Below are positions 13,864 to 33,311 of a DNA stretch of 33,311 bases, one piece after another. Positions within the stretch are counted from its first letter, which is position 1, and each line of letters starts with the position of its first letter. The DNA lies in assembly GCA_021298725.1 (NCBI GenBank), contig JAJTDU010000009.1, positions 1 to 33,311 of the forward strand. Reading direction: 5' to 3'. The translations under genes were made by a program, and so were the position numbers. A model generated the notes under the pieces. It ran no database searches, had not been told where the DNA came from, and saw nothing but the letters and a program-made list of their open reading frames with translations. Origin of the DNA: Verrucomicrobiaceae bacterium. GTDB lineage: Bacteria > Verrucomicrobiota > Verrucomicrobiia > Verrucomicrobiales > Verrucomicrobiaceae.

Positions 13864-13932
13864 GTAGAACGAATGTCCACATTCGTTGCAAGGTTCGGCG
13901 CGCGCTCAAACGAATGTGGACATTCGTTTTAC
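13864..13932. repeat. Inverted pair of REP-like palindromes (BIME-like)
   Basis: gtag+aacgaatgtccacattcgtt (13864-13887) and its exact 20-nt reverse complement aacgaatgtggacattcgtt (13909-13928) followed by ttac; each copy is itself a palindrome. Confidence 0.75.
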
Positions 13933-15044
13933 TTCACCGGCACGGCTTTCGGCGGATGGCGGTCCGCCTTGATCCACTGCTGCGCCTCGGTCCTGAACGC
14001 TTCGACGGGCAGCGCGAACGTCGTCACACGATCCACGCGGGCGATGTTGATGCCGACCACCTTGCCTTCGAGCGTGGTGACGGGCCCGCCCATGTCGCTG
14101 GGGTAGAGTGGGATGTCGTGCTGAAGGACTTCGGGGAAATTGTCGGAGCGCAGGGAAATGCCGCCGTTGGCGAAGTCCTCTCCCTCCCAGTTTTGCAGCA
14201 CTTTCGTGCGGCTGGCGAGGCGTACGCGACAGGTCTCCTCCTTGTCCTTGCGCAGGTAGCGCACTTCAATGACCTCGCCTGGCTGGCGTTTGTTCACCAG
14301 CTCATGCACGCGGCGGTACTGTGCCACGGCCTCGCCCGCGATGTTGAGCAGCACGTCGTTCTCCTGAAGGCCGGCGATCTCGGCGGGGCTTTCACTGGCG
14401 ATGCCGATGATCCGCACGCCTTTGACCTCCTTCGGCGTTTTTTCGTCCATGCGGATGCCCAGCGCGGCTCCGGTGCCGGGAATGGCACGACGAGCTGCGC
14501 TGACGATGCCGATGCGTGGCTCCTGGCCCGCGTCTGCGGTGCTGCACAGCCACTGGCCGAGGGTGAGCGGCTTCGACGCACCAAAGGAAACAACCGGCAG
14601 ACCGGTGATGCCGACCGCTTGCGCCAAAACGAGGTCAAGCCGCGCTTCGCGATGCACCTCCCGTAGCGCCGCTGTGCGGCCATCGGCGAAACGAACCCGC
14701 GCCTTGTCGAGATCGGGCACCTCGCTTGCCTTCGTCAAAACATAACCATCTGCGCCGACGATGGTGGCGGTGCAGATGGGACGCTCGAGCACGCTTTCAA
14801 TGCGGGCGGCGCAGTCGAGCGTGAGCGGCTTCAAGGGGGAAACCGCAGAGAGTGTCTGCTTGCCATTGGTGCGCTGCTCCGGCGGCAGCGTGGGAAGCGG
14901 CGTGTCCGCGAGGGCAAAAAACGGGCTGAGGAGAAGGACGGCGGAATGACGAATGACGAATTTCCGAAGGGCGAAGAAATGACGAAGCTCCAATGACGAA
15001 GTCGAGATGCCAGACAGGCGGGCGCATGTTTCAGCATTCGTCAT
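13929..15044 (-). CDS. HtrA-like trypsin-fold + PDZ protein, predicted catalytically inactive
   Basis: Trypsin-like core and PDZ (GVRIIGIASESPAEIAGLQENDVLLNIAGEAVAQYRRVHELV); GDSGGP position reads SDMGGP and TAAHV position reads TKASEV. ORF start lies in a repeat element; a TTG start further in is possible. Confidence 0.8.
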   Translation of the reverse strand: MTNAETCARLSGISTSSLELRHFFALRKFVIRHSAVLLLSPFFALADTPLPTLPPEQRTNGKQTLSAVSPLKPLTLDCAARIESVLERPICTATIVGADGYVLTKASEVPDLDKARVRFADGRTAALREVHREARLDLVLAQAVGITGLPVVSFGASKPLTLGQWLCSTADAGQEPRIGIVSAARRAIPGTGAALGIRMDEKTPKEVKGVRIIGIASESPAEIAGLQENDVLLNIAGEAVAQYRRVHELVNKRQPGEVIEVRYLRKDKEETCRVRLASRTKVLQNWEGEDFANGGISLRSDNFPEVLQHDIPLYPSDMGGPVTTLEGKVVGINIARVDRVTTFALPVEAFRTEAQQWIKADRHPPKAVPVK

Positions 15045-15048
15045 TCCG
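14942..15048. repeat. ATGACGAAT-type inverted-repeat element, copy A
   Basis: cggaatgacgaatg (14942-14955) / cattcgtcattccg (15035-15048) perfect 14-nt inverted repeat, with internal extra atgacgaa copies. Confidence 0.7.
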
Positions 15049-22870: not shown

Positions 22871-23785
22871 ATGATCTCACGTCGTCATTTTCTCTCTACC
22901 AGCTTCGGTGCGCTTACTGTCACCTCGCTTCCGGCCATTGAACCGATCAAGCGCCCCGGCAAAAGCCGCATGCAGCTCGGCGTCGCGGCCTACAGCTTCC
23001 GCGAATACTTCCAGTGGATGCGTTACAAGGAGCAGAAGCCGAAGGGCGACCGTCCGCATTGGAGCATTCTCGATTTCATCGACTGGTGCGGCGAGAACAA
23101 TGTGCCTGGAGCCGAGGTGACGAGCTACTTCTTCCCGCCGGAAGTCGATGAAGCCTTCCTGCTTGAGGTGAAGCGCCGTGCTTACCTGCGCGGCGTGCAG
23201 ATCGCCGGCACCGCAGTCGGCAACAACTTCGCACTCCCAAAGGGCGAGAAGCTGAGCGAGCAGATCGCTTACACAAAGAAGTGGATCGACCACTCTGCGG
23301 TGATGGGAGCACCGCACATCCGCGTGTTTGCCGGGGCGAAGCCCAAAGACCTCACGGAGGAGGAAGCCGTCGCCCATTGTCAGGAAGCTTATCAAGAGTG
23401 CCTCGATTACGCAGGCAAGAAGGGTGTCTTCCTCGGCCTCGAAAACCACGGCGGCATCGTCGCGCTGCCGGACAACCTCATCAAAATGGTGCAGGCCGCG
23501 AAAAGCCCTTGGGCCGGCATCAACCTCGACAGCGGTAACTTCCACACCGCCGATCCGTATGCCGACCTCGCCAAGATCGCGCCCTACGCGGTCAATGTGC
23601 AGCTCAAGATGGAGATCAAACGTGAAGGCGCGAAGGAAGCCGAGGCCAGCGATGTGAAACGCGTGATCCAGATCATGCGTGATGCGAACTACCAGGGCTG
23701 GTTCACGCTCGAATTTGAGACCAAGGAAGACCCGTTTGTGAAGGTGCCGGAGATCTGTGAGATGCTAAGGCCTTTGCTGGGTTGA
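22871..23785 (+). CDS. Sugar phosphate isomerase/epimerase (TIM barrel), exported
   Basis: MISRRHFLSTSFGALTVTSLPA signal; GVAAYSFREYF, LGLENHGGIVA, GINLDSGNFHTADPYADLAKIAPYAVNVQLKMEI, GWFTLEFE. Confidence 0.87.
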   Translation: MISRRHFLSTSFGALTVTSLPAIEPIKRPGKSRMQLGVAAYSFREYFQWMRYKEQKPKGDRPHWSILDFIDWCGENNVPGAEVTSYFFPPEVDEAFLLEVKRRAYLRGVQIAGTAVGNNFALPKGEKLSEQIAYTKKWIDHSAVMGAPHIRVFAGAKPKDLTEEEAVAHCQEAYQECLDYAGKKGVFLGLENHGGIVALPDNLIKMVQAAKSPWAGINLDSGNFHTADPYADLAKIAPYAVNVQLKMEIKREGAKEAEASDVKRVIQIMRDANYQGWFTLEFETKEDPFVKVPEICEMLRPLLG

Positions 23786-23791
23786 GGAGGG

Positions 23792-23831
23792 AGTTGACGG
23801 TAGTTTACTGTGGTTGACGATGGTTGACCGT
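23792..23831 (-). repeat. Left decamer block (4 x 10 bp, inverted orientation)
   Basis: agttgacggt agtttactgt ggttgacgat ggttgaccgt. Confidence 0.8.
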
Positions 23832-23866
23832 TGTTTCAGAACGGCGAAGCCGCTGGCTCGGAAACG

Positions 23867-23906
23867 ACAGTCAACAATTCTAAACAACCGTCAACCATCG
23901 TAAACC
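23867..23906 (+). repeat. Middle decamer block (4 x 10 bp) ending 2 nt before the ATG
   Basis: acagtcaaca attctaaaca accgtcaacc atcgtaaacc. Confidence 0.8.
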
Positions 23907-23908
23907 CC

Positions 23909-24286
23909 ATGAGAAAACAGTTTCCCTTCGAGAAGCTCGAAGTTTGGCAAGACGCGCGAAAGCTCGTGGGCGGCGTGTATCAATGTTCACGGAGCTTTCC
24001 GCGTGAGGAACGCTTTGGCCTAACCAGCCAGATGACACGCGCAGCCGTCTCGGTCGCCAACAACCTCGCAGAAGGTTGTGGCAGGTCGAGCTTCAAGGAT
24101 CAGGCGCATTTCTCGAACCAGACGCACGGTTCGCTCATGGAAACCGCGTCAGACTTGATCATCGCCACCGATCTTGGCTTTGCATCTGCTGAAACCACTG
24201 ACCTGCTTCTTGATCAGGCTTATGACTTGGCCGTGCGCATCCACAATCTCCGCGACTCCCAACTGCGCCGCTCGGAAGCTCTTTGA
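23909..24286 (+). CDS. Four helix bundle protein (S23 / 23S rRNA intervening-sequence-type)
   Basis: MRKQFPFEKLEVWQDARKLVGGVYQCSRSFPREERFGLTSQMTRAAVSVANNLAEGCGRSSFKDQAHFSNQTHGSLMETASDLIIATDLGF: classic KLxVWQxA...FGLxxQxRRAAxSxxxNIAEG pattern. Confidence 0.92.
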   Translation: MRKQFPFEKLEVWQDARKLVGGVYQCSRSFPREERFGLTSQMTRAAVSVANNLAEGCGRSSFKDQAHFSNQTHGSLMETASDLIIATDLGFASAETTDLLLDQAYDLAVRIHNLRDSQLRRSEAL

Positions 24287-24291
24287 AAACC

Positions 24292-24331
24292 ACCGTCAAC
24301 CACTGTAAACAACCGTCAACCACCGCAAACA
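24292..24331 (+). repeat. Right decamer block (4 x 10 bp)
   Basis: accgtcaacc actgtaaaca accgtcaacc accgcaaaca, ending 7 nt before the glgE ATG. Confidence 0.8.
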
Positions 24332-24338
24332 TCTCCCA

Positions 24339-26294
24339 ATGTCCGCCACCCACGCTCCCACGGTCGTCATCGAGAATTTCTACCCCTGCCTCGAAGGCGG
24401 ACGTCATCCGGTCAAGCGGGTCATCGACGAGCCGCTGGATGTGTGGTGCGACATCTTCAAGGACGGGCACGATGTGATGACCGCAGTGCTGCGCTGGCGG
24501 CTGGCGGGCACGCGGCGCTGGTTTGAGGTGCGGATGAAGCCGCTGGAGAATGACCGCTGGCAGGGACAGTGCTTTTTTGAAAAAGCCGGGCGCTGGGAGT
24601 ATGTGGTCGAGGCTTGGGGAGACACGTTCCGTTCGTGGAAAAAGACCTTCGCCGTGCGGGTGCAGGCCAAAGATCCCGATGTGCCGATTGAAGCCCAAGA
24701 AGGCGCTAGGTTGTTGCGCGAGGCAGGCAAACGTGCCCGCGCCGCCGGAGTCGCCCTGGCGGCGACGCAGCTCGAGGACTGCGCGGATCTGCTCACCTCG
24801 ATGAAGCCGGGCGATATCATGGACGTGCTGCTGTCCGACGAGATGCAAAGCCTGATGGATCAGTATCCTGACCGCGATCAGTCCACCACCTCGGATACGC
24901 TGCGCGTGATCGTCGAGCGTGAACGCGCTCGGTTCTCAGCGTGGTATGAATTCTTCCCGCGTGGTGCCGAAGGCCGTGCAGACAAGCATTCCACGTTTCG
25001 TGACTGTCTGGGCCGCCTCGATCATGCGGCGCACATGGGTTTCGATGTGATCTACTTTCCGCCGATCCATCCGATCGGCATCACGGCCCGCAAAGGCAAA
25101 AACAACACCCTCACCGCCCAGTCCGGCGATGTCGGCAGGCCGTGGGCCATCGGTGGCCCTGCGGGCGGACATCGTGCGATTGAGCCAGCGCTCGGCACCG
25201 AGAAAGATTTCGTGTGGTTGATCCAAGAAGCAAAGAAGCGCGGCCTTGAGATCGCCCTCGACTTCGCCATCAACTGCTCGCCGGATCATCCGTATGTCAA
25301 AGATCACCCTGAGTGGTTCTACAAGCGGCCCGACGGCAGCATTCGTTATGCGGAGAACCCGCCGAAGAAATATCAAGACATCTACCCCATCAATTTCCAC
25401 TGCGATGATTGGCGTAATCTCTGGAAGGAGTTGATCGACGTGGTGCAGCACTGGGTCGATCTCGGCGTGAAGATCTTCCGCGTTGATAATCCACACACGA
25501 AACCCGTCGCGTTCTGGGAAGAGCTCATCGCCACGATCCAGCGCAAAGACCCTGACGTGCTGTTCCTCGCGGAAGCCTTCACGAAGCCGAAAATGATGCA
25601 GGTGCTTGGCAAAATCGGCTTCACGCAGAGCTACACTTACTTCACTTGGCGGGAGGATCGCCACGCGCTCACCGAATACGCCACCGAACTCACGCGCAGC
25701 GACATGCGCTGGTATTATCGCGCCAATTTCTGGCCGAACACGCCGGACATCCTGCCTGGCCATCTGCAAAACGCCGGGCCGCAGATGTTCCGCATCCGCG
25801 CCGCTTTGGCCGCTACCCTGTCATCGACCTGGGGCATGTATTCGGGCTACGAGCTGTGCGAAAACGATCCGTATCCCGGCAAGGAGGAGTACAACCACAG
25901 CGAGAAGTATGAGCTCAAGCAGCGCGACTACAACAAGCCGGGCAACCTCACGGCCTTCATTCGCATGCTGAACCTGATCCGCCGGGACAACCCGGCGCTG
26001 CATCTCTACGACAATCTCAGATTCCACGGCTCCGACCACGACCAGATCCTCTGCTACAGCAAAGCCACGCCTGACTTCAGCAACCGCATCCTCTGCGTGA
26101 TCAGTCATGACCCGCATCATCCCGCTGGTGGCATGGTGCACCTGGATCTCGCCGTGCTGGGCCTGGATGGCAGCCGTCCTTTTAAAGTTACCGACCTTCT
26201 GCACAACCAGAGCTACGAATGGAAAGGCGCAGACAATTACGTCGGCCTCAATCCGCACGGCACCTCGATGCATCTCTTCAAAGTGGAGCCGTGA
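24339..26294 (+). CDS. glgE: Alpha-1,4-glucan:maltose-1-phosphate maltosyltransferase (GH13)
   Basis: N-terminal GlgE domain (VVIENFYPCLEGGRHPVKRVIDEPLDVWCDIFKDGHD), WYEFFPR, MGFDVIYFPPIHPIGITARKGKNNTL, LDFAINCSPDHPYVKDHPEWF, GVKIFRVDNPHTKPVAFWE, LFLAEAFTKPKMM. Confidence 0.93.
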   Translation: MSATHAPTVVIENFYPCLEGGRHPVKRVIDEPLDVWCDIFKDGHDVMTAVLRWRLAGTRRWFEVRMKPLENDRWQGQCFFEKAGRWEYVVEAWGDTFRSWKKTFAVRVQAKDPDVPIEAQEGARLLREAGKRARAAGVALAATQLEDCADLLTSMKPGDIMDVLLSDEMQSLMDQYPDRDQSTTSDTLRVIVERERARFSAWYEFFPRGAEGRADKHSTFRDCLGRLDHAAHMGFDVIYFPPIHPIGITARKGKNNTLTAQSGDVGRPWAIGGPAGGHRAIEPALGTEKDFVWLIQEAKKRGLEIALDFAINCSPDHPYVKDHPEWFYKRPDGSIRYAENPPKKYQDIYPINFHCDDWRNLWKELIDVVQHWVDLGVKIFRVDNPHTKPVAFWEELIATIQRKDPDVLFLAEAFTKPKMMQVLGKIGFTQSYTYFTWREDRHALTEYATELTRSDMRWYYRANFWPNTPDILPGHLQNAGPQMFRIRAALAATLSSTWGMYSGYELCENDPYPGKEEYNHSEKYELKQRDYNKPGNLTAFIRMLNLIRRDNPALHLYDNLRFHGSDHDQILCYSKATPDFSNRILCVISHDPHHPAGGMVHLDLAVLGLDGSRPFKVTDLLHNQSYEWKGADNYVGLNPHGTSMHLFKVEP

Positions 26295-31003: not shown

Positions 31004-31147
31004 AAATGACGAGTGACGGATTTCTAAATGACGAATGAATGACCAAGCATGAATGACGAAAGGCCATGAAGGCAGGCGCAAGGCCGCGCATTTCGACATT
31101 GGGCATCAGAGCTTCATTCGTCATTCGGATTTAGTCACTCGTCATTT
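31004..31147. repeat. ATGACGAAT-type inverted-repeat element, copy B
   Basis: Outer arms aaatgacgagtgac (31004-31017) / gtcactcgtcattt (31134-31147) perfect 14 nt; inner arms aatgacgaatgaa (31027-31039) / ttcattcgtcatt (31113-31125) perfect 13 nt. Confidence 0.75.
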
Positions 31148-31925
31148 CTGCGTGGCTCTCAATCACTGCCCAGGCGTTGTGATTGTGGATGGATTCGTAG
31201 TTTTCGGCTTCAACGCGGAACCAGGTGATGTGTGAATGCGCCTTGGCCTTCACGGCAACGTTGCGCACGAGGTCTTCGACGAAGACCGGATTGTCGTAGG
31301 CAGCTTCAGTGACGAATTTTTCGTCGGGACGCTTCAAAATGCTATACAGCTCGCTGCTGGCGCTGGTCTCGACGAGTTCGAGGAGATCCTCGATCCAGAC
31401 CGGTTCGCTGAAGCGGACGGAGAGTGTGACAGTACCGCGCTGATTGTGGGCACCACGGGCACTGATGGCCTTGGAGCACGGACAAAGCGTGGCGACGGGT
31501 ACTTCGACGGTGAGCACGAAGTCGGTCTTGTCAGCGTCCGCATTCACGTCAAAGACGACGCCGTAGTCGAGCAGGCCTTCAGCGCCTGAAACGGGTGCTT
31601 TTTTGGCGCGGAAGTAGGGAAAGCGCATCTCGACATGCGCTTTGTCGGCATGAAGCTTTTTCATCAGCTCACGCGGCATGGCAACGATATTGGAAACGGT
31701 CAGTTCGGTGCCGTGAGCGTGCAGGATCTCGACGAAACGGCTCATGTGGGTGCCTTTGAACTGGTGCGGCAGGTCAACGGCGAGGGAAACGGTGGTGACT
31801 GTGTGCTGCACGGCGGCATCACGGTCGCGGATGCGCATGGGGAAGCGCAGGCTGCGGACGCCGACGCGGTCGATGGGCAGACGGCGGTCGTCGCGTTCGC
31901 TTTGCGTATCTTGGAGGGCGGACAT
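31131..31925 (-). CDS. folE2: GTP cyclohydrolase IB (FolE2 type)
   Basis: Pattern of FolE2: HGTELTVSNIVAMPRELMKKLHADKAHVEMRFPYFRAKKAPVSGAEGLLDY, VPVATLCPCSKAISARGAHNQRGTVTLSVRF, NPVFVEDLVRNVA. Confidence 0.93.
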   Translation of the reverse strand: MSALQDTQSERDDRRLPIDRVGVRSLRFPMRIRDRDAAVQHTVTTVSLAVDLPHQFKGTHMSRFVEILHAHGTELTVSNIVAMPRELMKKLHADKAHVEMRFPYFRAKKAPVSGAEGLLDYGVVFDVNADADKTDFVLTVEVPVATLCPCSKAISARGAHNQRGTVTLSVRFSEPVWIEDLLELVETSASSELYSILKRPDEKFVTEAAYDNPVFVEDLVRNVAVKAKAHSHITWFRVEAENYESIHNHNAWAVIESHAEMTSD

Positions 31926-32462: not shown

Positions 32463-33311
32463 TCACTCTTTGGAGAAGTCAAGTGATTCGCCGGAGTTGT
32501 TATTATTCGAGGATGGCGCGGCGTCATCCTCATCCTTGTCGTCGTCTGCGGCGTCGTCCGCGTTGTCGAGGCCGAAGAGGGAGTGGACGGGACGGCTCCA
32601 GCGTCCGCTCATCTGGCTGCGCTCGATTTTTTCCTGATAAGTCACGGAGTATCGGGCGAAGGGCATGGCTTCGAGGCGTTCCTCGGGGATTTGGACTCCC
32701 GTGCCTTCGCAGAGGCCGTAGGTGCCGGTTTCGATGCGCTTGAGCGCTTCGTTGATCTCGTAAAGCGCGTCCTGCTCCTTGCCGAGGAGGCTGAGGGCGA
32801 AGTCGCGGTCATAGGCGTCGCTGCCTGCATCGGCCTGATGCATGCCGAAGGCGGAGGAGTCGCCGCCTTCATTGCGGATGGTTTCGCTGGCGACACCTTG
32901 GATGGAGTTCAGGTAGGCGTCACGCAGCTCGACGAGGCGCTGCTTCTGCTTCTTGAGGAAAGGGGTCATTTTCACTGGCCCCTTGGCGATCTCGATGGTG
33001 ATGCCTTCTTCTTCGCGGTTGGTACGACCGCGAGGTGTGCCAGAAGTGGAAATAGAGGTGCGTCCTTTCGCCGCGAGTGGCGGCGGGGTGGATTTGGAAG
33101 GCTTGGACGGAGCAGCGGTCGGCTTGGTGACCACCGCTTTCACAGGAGCCGGGGCTGGGGCAGGCGCTGGTGTGGCAGGCTTGGCCGCAGGTTTCGCGGC
33201 TTTCGCGGGTGCGCTGGCTTTCGCCGGTGCGCTGGCTTTCGCCGGTGCGCTGGCTTTCGCCGGTGCGCTGGCTTTCGCCGGTGCGCTGGCTTTCGCAGGT
33301 GCGCTGGCTTT
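32463..33311 (-). CDS. TraR/DksA-family protein with K/A/P-rich N-terminal extension (5' end beyond window)
   Basis: DksA-like coiled coil and LKRIETGTYGLCEGTGVQIPEERLEAMPFARYSVTYQEKIERSQ. Frame stays open upstream of 33143 to the window edge through KASAPA repeats, so 33143 is probably not the real start. Confidence 0.85.
   Translation of the reverse strand, partial: KASAPAKASAPAKASAPAKASAPAKASAPAKASAPAKAAKPAAKPATPAPAPAPAPVKAVVTKPTAAPSKPSKSTPPPLAAKGRTSISTSGTPRGRTNREEEGITIEIAKGPVKMTPFLKKQKQRLVELRDAYLNSIQGVASETIRNEGGDSSAFGMHQADAGSDAYDRDFALSLLGKEQDALYEINEALKRIETGTYGLCEGTGVQIPEERLEAMPFARYSVTYQEKIERSQMSGRWSRPVHSLFGLDNADDAADDDKDEDDAAPSSNNNNSGESLDFSKE
33198..33311 (-). repeat. 18-bp coding tandem repeat (KASAPA units)
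   Basis: ggctttcgcNggtgcgct x 6 full copies (33198-33305) plus partial copy at the window edge; the central four units are identical. Confidence 0.95.

Follow-up and report, generated by a model that had tools for sequence, protein, structure and literature searches.

An S23 four-helix-bundle gene enclosed by inverted short tandem repeats, and a possible partnership between S23 proteins and bacterial repeat arrays

The window analysed here, 33,311 nt of Verrucomicrobiaceae DNA (contig C160; the assembly comprises 3.49 Mb in 289 contigs and is 82% complete), holds a small gene for an S23-type protein. The gene sits outside any rRNA, between an isomerase gene and glgE, and is enclosed by complementary repeats made of 10-bp units. 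What kind of unit is this, and what, if anything, ties the gene to its repeats?

The S23 unit between the isomerase and glgE genes

The S23 gene occupies positions 23909–24286 of the forward strand and encodes 125 amino acids. Upstream lies a gene for a xylose-isomerase-like TIM-barrel protein (22871–23785, +; PF01261), which forms the conserved left boundary of the junction, and downstream the gene for a GlgE maltosyltransferase (24339–26294, +; PF11896 and PF21702), whose position is taken by another gene in some relatives. With the isomerase stop at 23785 and the glgE start at 24339, the S23 unit fills the intergenic space, as a preliminary description of this DNA had proposed. That description had also seen near-perfect inverted repeats of about 33 bp and three blocks of decamers (left, inverted; before the ATG, direct; after the stop, direct), and both were borne out. 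The arms (23793–23825 and 24288–24320) are 33 nt each, are complementary at 30 of 33 positions (91%) and form the longest and best inverted pair no more than 700 bp apart in the whole window. A scan with the consensus GTMAACNAYN found the three tandem blocks, of 4–5 units each: a left, outer array of five inverted units (23789–23838, −), which contains the left arm; an inner, direct array (23860–23909, +), which ends at the S23 start codon; and a right, outer array of five direct units (24285–24334, +), which contains the right arm. In the predicted RNA fold (z = −5.1), which closes the unit, the left array has two partners: its outer portion base-pairs with the right array, enclosing the whole gene, and its inner portion with the array preceding the ATG. 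No Rfam match was found at 23600–24500, and PADLOC returned no match, which leaves membership in a defence system unsupported. Elsewhere in the window we noted a separate palindromic element at 13864–13932, with 24-nt arms (96% complementary, 21 nt apart) around CGAATGTCCACATTCG, and a tandem (ASAPAK)n repeat at 33143–33311, in the N-terminal part of a protein (32463–33311, −) that is cut by the contig end.

The S23 protein matched PF05635 (23S_rRNA_IVP; E = 4e-31, 107.8 bits, curated cut-off 33.8) and TIGR02436 (four helix bundle protein; E = 6e-28, 97.3 bits, cut-off 24), in agreement with the earlier recognition of an S23/IVS-type four-helix-bundle gene outside rRNA. PF05635 was the sole Pfam family above its cut-off for this product, and no Y1 (HUH) RAYT transposase was seen in it. 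The AlphaFold model is a four-helix bundle (pLDDT 97). When the model was searched with Foldseek, the best PDB match was 2gsc (TM 0.89), with 2rld at TM 0.77 and Avd and DGR ribonucleoprotein chains as remote matches at TM 0.64–0.75. The structure 2gsc is that of the S23 protein XCC0516 from X. campestris. Comparison with related genomes, where dS could be estimated, showed that the gene is under strong purifying selection (dN/dS 0.01–0.07). The S23 query gave no match among 50,697 phage records, so carriage by phage is unsupported.

Dispersed arrays in the genome and its relatives

A 26-nt decamer pattern matched 22 times in the 3.49 Mb assembly, compared with no match for a reversed-pattern control, and the decamer array is therefore present beyond chance. 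The arrays are mostly intergenic and are often hairpins that lack an ORF. Sites other than the S23 unit lie at gene boundaries on contigs C97, C208 (twice), C221, C227, C233 and C163, and on reading no S23 gene adjoins them. Several consist of two arrays that face each other as a hairpin, among them one on C221 that folds with z = −5.6; on C97 a prepilin gene has the hairpin in frame among its first codons. A second repeat family accompanies another S23 gene of this genome. The copy on contig C20 is flanked, in inverted orientation, by a TTCGTCA-type heptamer, which matched 106 times in the genome against none for the control and forms two hairpins within the window. One of these, a TTCGTCA/TGACGAA hairpin at 14942–15048, overlaps the 5' end of gene 13929–15044 (−), so that its heptamer units are probably translated in the N-terminus of that protein; the other, at 31008–31147, lies at the 3' end of gene 31131–31925 (−). 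Paralogues on C38 and C45 had no clear flank on reading, the one on C45 scoring under the family cut-off. Both the decamer and the heptamer thus occur in scattered intergenic arrays built of short tandem units, as repeats of the STRR type do. Because these decamers also occur at scattered sites and other S23 genes have flanks of this sort, the element is not solitary, and in this the first description has to be corrected.

S23 matches occur in 58 of the 68 genomes of the family. Among related genomes, approximately 24 orthologues are flanked by arrays, and most of these genes sit after the same isomerase gene; the decamers that were to be sought around related four-helix-bundle genes are thus present at orthologues. 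The flanking unit varies by lineage, being a GTMAAC decamer, a GCMAAC decamer or an 11-mer, with longer units in more distant genera. Conservation of one decamer among orthologues was considered as the whole story and was rejected, the unit changing between lineages. Dispersed arrays were compared with flank types in draft genomes that are not independent of one another, so that correlations are confounded by phylogeny, and flank typing and remnant classes were partly by eye; among 20 such genomes, 11-mer arrays were found only in the three with an 11-mer-flanked S23 gene (G018, G033 and G057) and in G064, and in none of the 16 others, while CTCAAC arrays were found in six of the seven genomes with a CTCAAC-flanked S23 gene and in none of nine others. 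Agreement between flanking and dispersed arrays for the T-type and C-type patterns was weak (p 0.03). The richest genome for the T-type pattern is G005, where 20 fetched sites proved to be facing pairs about 35–55 nt apart or solo arrays, mostly of 4–5 units. Several of its solo arrays (among L252–L271) have common extra flanking sequence (e.g. atccggctcaatccgactggatccgacct), as if they were part of a larger dispersed repeat.

The junction after the isomerase gene takes several forms. Besides intact versions there are internal-deletion remnants, in which array sequence and the final S23 codons survive (G002, G012, G021, G027, G029, G030 and G070), a left-array remnant (G004), degenerate S23 genes (G034 and G076) and S23-free junctions (G007, G068, G075 and G008); rearranged junctions form a further class. 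Junctions lacking the unit had been suggested as something to look for, and internally deleted and S23-free versions were found. With arms that are 91% complementary at a variable junction, the notion of a cassette with its own complementary ends holds. With the junction variable and orthologues flanked by decamers, neither of the two observations named beforehand as telling against the preliminary description (an invariant junction, unconserved decamers) was made. For the window copy, the idea of a non-autonomous mobile element was not supported: S23 stays after the isomerase gene in most of the approximately 24 relatives and is under purifying selection. The window S23 copy occupies a single junction, which is inherited vertically, and within the genus it seems to remain in place.

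What shifts position between genomes is the ORF-less arrays and hairpins, not the S23 copy. In the prepilin gene the array is present in 10 genomes, including the window's own, and absent in eight; when filled and empty sites were compared by reading, no obvious target-site duplication was seen. In one genome (G013, L213) the decamer array in this gene is expanded to several near-identical GGTTTGCACT units within the coding sequence. The junction between an araC-like gene and prfB carries a decamer hairpin in eight genomes, a different S23 gene with GCTGGAT-type flanks in six (L237–L241 and L248, in G013, G027, G070, G030, G012 and G015) and a GCTGGAT-type hairpin without a gene in one. These three occupants indicate that different S23/repeat systems can use one junction.

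Pattern counts were obtained for 35 genomes of the genus, grouped by the state of S23. Each of the 17 genomes with an intact S23 gene has at least 7 hits, the eight with S23 remnants have 2 to 84, and six with no S23 trace have 0; G008 is the exception, with 40 hits, and three genomes were unclassified. Arrays are thus present in 25 of 25 genus genomes with intact or remnant S23 and in one of seven without (Fisher p 8e-6, for classes read by eye and a threshold of 2 hits picked afterwards). Because G008 has 40 hits without a junction trace and remnant genomes keep many arrays, intact S23 is dispensable for array persistence.

Inverted flanks of S23 genes across phyla

The 80 S23 loci closest to the query in a scan of genome contigs span Verrucomicrobiota, Planctomycetota, Bacteroidota, Acidobacteriota, Patescibacteria, Pseudomonadota and other phyla. 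Flanks were scored at the 78 loci with 120 nt on both sides, against a threshold set at the 95th percentile of 322 control ORFs, a small set taken from the same loci as the S23 genes. Complementary inverted flanks exceeded this threshold at 63 of the 78 loci; the other 15 gave no flank signal within 120 nt. The median inverted score was 35. Control ORFs had a median of 15, and the median was 14 both when flanks of different S23 loci were mispaired and when flanks were compared in direct orientation (Mann-Whitney p about 1e-29). The arms have a median length of 29 nt, starting a median of 8 nt past the stop codon and ending a median of 15 nt ahead of the start codon. Their strand polarity is fixed, with C exceeding G in the downstream arm at 62 of 63 loci. 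The usual unit is 7–8 bp and differs between loci, with a period of 7 in 33 loci and of 8 in 11.

Further paralogues of the family exceeded the same threshold in 15 of 20 cases, and S23 genes on plasmids in 10 of 15. The plasmid genes are mostly cyanobacterial, several have heptamer units, and no Xanthomonas record was among the plasmid matches. On cyanobacterial plasmids S23 genes lie inside operons, between cas6 and cas4, between cmr2 and cmr3, and between the beta and alpha genes of ribonucleotide reductase (L293, L295, L298 and L303). PMC3936711 describes S23 genes in cas loci, and a CRISPR-association screen also reported them (PMC10910872). Both reports fit the insertion habit observed on these plasmids, and S23 cassettes inside cas, cmr and ribonucleotide-reductase operons may offer a simple explanation for the reported CRISPR association.

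S23 proteins and their repeats: readings and known systems

The window unit may be an IVS-like, hairpin-enclosed cassette whose S23 protein forms a specific partnership with its repeat family, in the manner of RAYT and REP though free of transposase; we put the chances of this at about even. The likeness to IVS and to REP/RAYT, the four-helix protein and the fact that no dedicated reverse transcriptase would be needed lead us to favour it. The window unit would be the source or partner locus of the genome-wide array family. The S23 protein would specifically recognise its cognate repeat, most likely as a folded hairpin of RNA or single-stranded DNA, and recognition would preserve the repeats, hold them to one sequence and allow copies to reach new intergenic sites, as a RAYT protein does for REP sequences, with host enzymes cutting and joining the strands. 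ORF-less hairpins and solo arrays could be non-autonomous copies, and 23S rRNA intervening sequences could be S23 cassettes that landed in rRNA. Of this picture, the architecture and its generality, the matching of units to lineages, their dispersal, the variable occupancy and the survival of arrays after S23 decay are observed; repeat binding, a part for S23 in spreading and the work of host enzymes are inferred. What counts for a role of S23 as repeat partner is the excess of complementary flanks, their fixed polarity, their recurrence at paralogues and on plasmids, the dispersal of the units, the cognate matching, the co-occurrence of S23 traces with arrays, the polymorphic occupancy and the purifying selection. 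Counting against it are the persistence of arrays without intact S23 (in G008 and the remnant genomes), an S23 copy that is static within the genus, the 15 of 78 loci without flank signal, the phylogenetic confounding, the weak T/C-type match and the failure to see a clear target-site duplication.

The main rival is regulatory. S23 would be an RNA-binding regulator and the hairpin arrays its sites in untranslated regions, including those of its own mRNA, with ordinary recombination spreading the arrays and usefulness keeping them. Arrays at gene boundaries with strong folds (z = −5.6 and −5.1) and strong purifying selection on S23 are consistent with such a role; the fixed polarity relative to the gene would suit a transcript structure, and S23 resembles Avd, a component of the DGR ribonucleoprotein. 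However, occupancy varies among close relatives, one insertion lies within the prepilin coding sequence and arrays abut unrelated genes, and we consider a regulatory role possible but rather unlikely. It is improbable that tandem-repeat hairpins form and spread alone, with S23 genes inserted or retained without any functional relation to them. Six genus genomes without an S23 trace (with a different or S23-free junction) have no arrays, the units match the S23 lineage, and a fixed polarity of the arms relative to the ORF is not expected of a chance passenger, even though the araC–prfB hairpin occurs with or without an S23 gene and with differing repeat types, and arrays outlast intact S23. S23 might also work as Avd does, together with a reverse transcriptase supplied in trans, and the cassette would then spread through an RNA copy. 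The Foldseek matches to Avd and DGR ribonucleoprotein chains (TM 0.64–0.75) point this way, but a search for RVT_1 (reverse transcriptase) gave no match in any of four genomes, the window's own, G002, G008 and G005 (99% complete, with 159 array hits), which makes this very unlikely. Least credible of all are microsatellites produced by polymerase slippage, or an artefact of sequencing or assembly, for although the units are short and tandem and the G013 prepilin copy is clearly expanded by repeated units, units vary within arrays, which are mostly of 4–5 units, both arms change together, the pattern recurs in many genomes and on complete plasmids, and arms at S23 loci are more alike than the flanks of other genes.

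The reading of S23 as repeat partner can be set beside known systems. Like the Avd proteins of DGRs (4dwl, 8ub7), S23 has a four-helix-bundle fold, oligomeric relatives and an RNA-associated context; unlike in DGRs, no reverse transcriptase was found in the window's genome (82% complete), and the similarity is remote. The 23S rRNA IVS of Coxiella burnetii, 428 nt long, carries an S23 ORF in a 28-bp terminal stem and is excised by RNase III, and the origin of such elements is unclear (PMC4990558). The window unit shares with it an S23-family ORF inside complementary termini, with arms of 29–33 nt here against the 28-bp stem, and at about 550 bp is of similar size. It differs in lying between protein genes, in arms built of tandem short units and in the dispersal of those units as ORF-less hairpins and solo arrays. 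REP/RAYT systems combine one conserved gene with many dispersed repeats. Here too one conserved gene lies between repeats that also form hairpins scattered through intergenic DNA, and gene and repeats co-occur and match by lineage, but S23, a small four-helix bundle, is not related to the RAYT transposases, and its repeats are tandem 7–11-mers rather than 20–40-bp REP palindromes.

The closest parallel on the side of the repeats is the STRR heptamers, which occur in cyanobacteria and include TAACTGA in Beggiatoaceae (PMC4679880) as well as two described in PMC4692102, GGGAATC from Xanthomonas and GGGGA(C/T)T from Nostoc. For X. campestris, 186 GGGAATC arrays are reported, four units being the commonest size, and 70 inverted pairs (PMC4692102). 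The arrays described here are alike in being intergenic, in forming inverted pairs, in lying near stop codons and in their number of units, four being typical in Xanthomonas, and cyanobacterial plasmid S23 genes are flanked by heptamers; unlike here, where a gene family is tied to the arrays, the available parts of PMC4679880 and PMC4692102 describe no protein partner. A search of literature outside subscription journals returned no paper connecting PF05635/S23 genes with flanking short repeats. The same S23-plus-matching-repeat layout in many phyla, with a different repeat each time, suggests that S23 is the partner of a long-known class of bacterial repeats. We tentatively propose, at somewhat less than even confidence, that S23 proteins are dedicated sequence-specific partners of bacterial short-tandem-repeat arrays generally, from heptamers to 11-mers in many phyla, and form a transposase-free class of repeat-spreading systems of which the 23S rRNA IVS would be the rRNA-inserted members. 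Two old puzzles then seem to merge: what S23 proteins do, a question as old as their finding in rRNA IVS, and where the intergenic heptamer arrays of cyanobacteria, Beggiatoaceae and Xanthomonas come from. The lineage-matched link between S23 and repeat gives both sides a testable partner and predicts the target repeat of each S23 protein.
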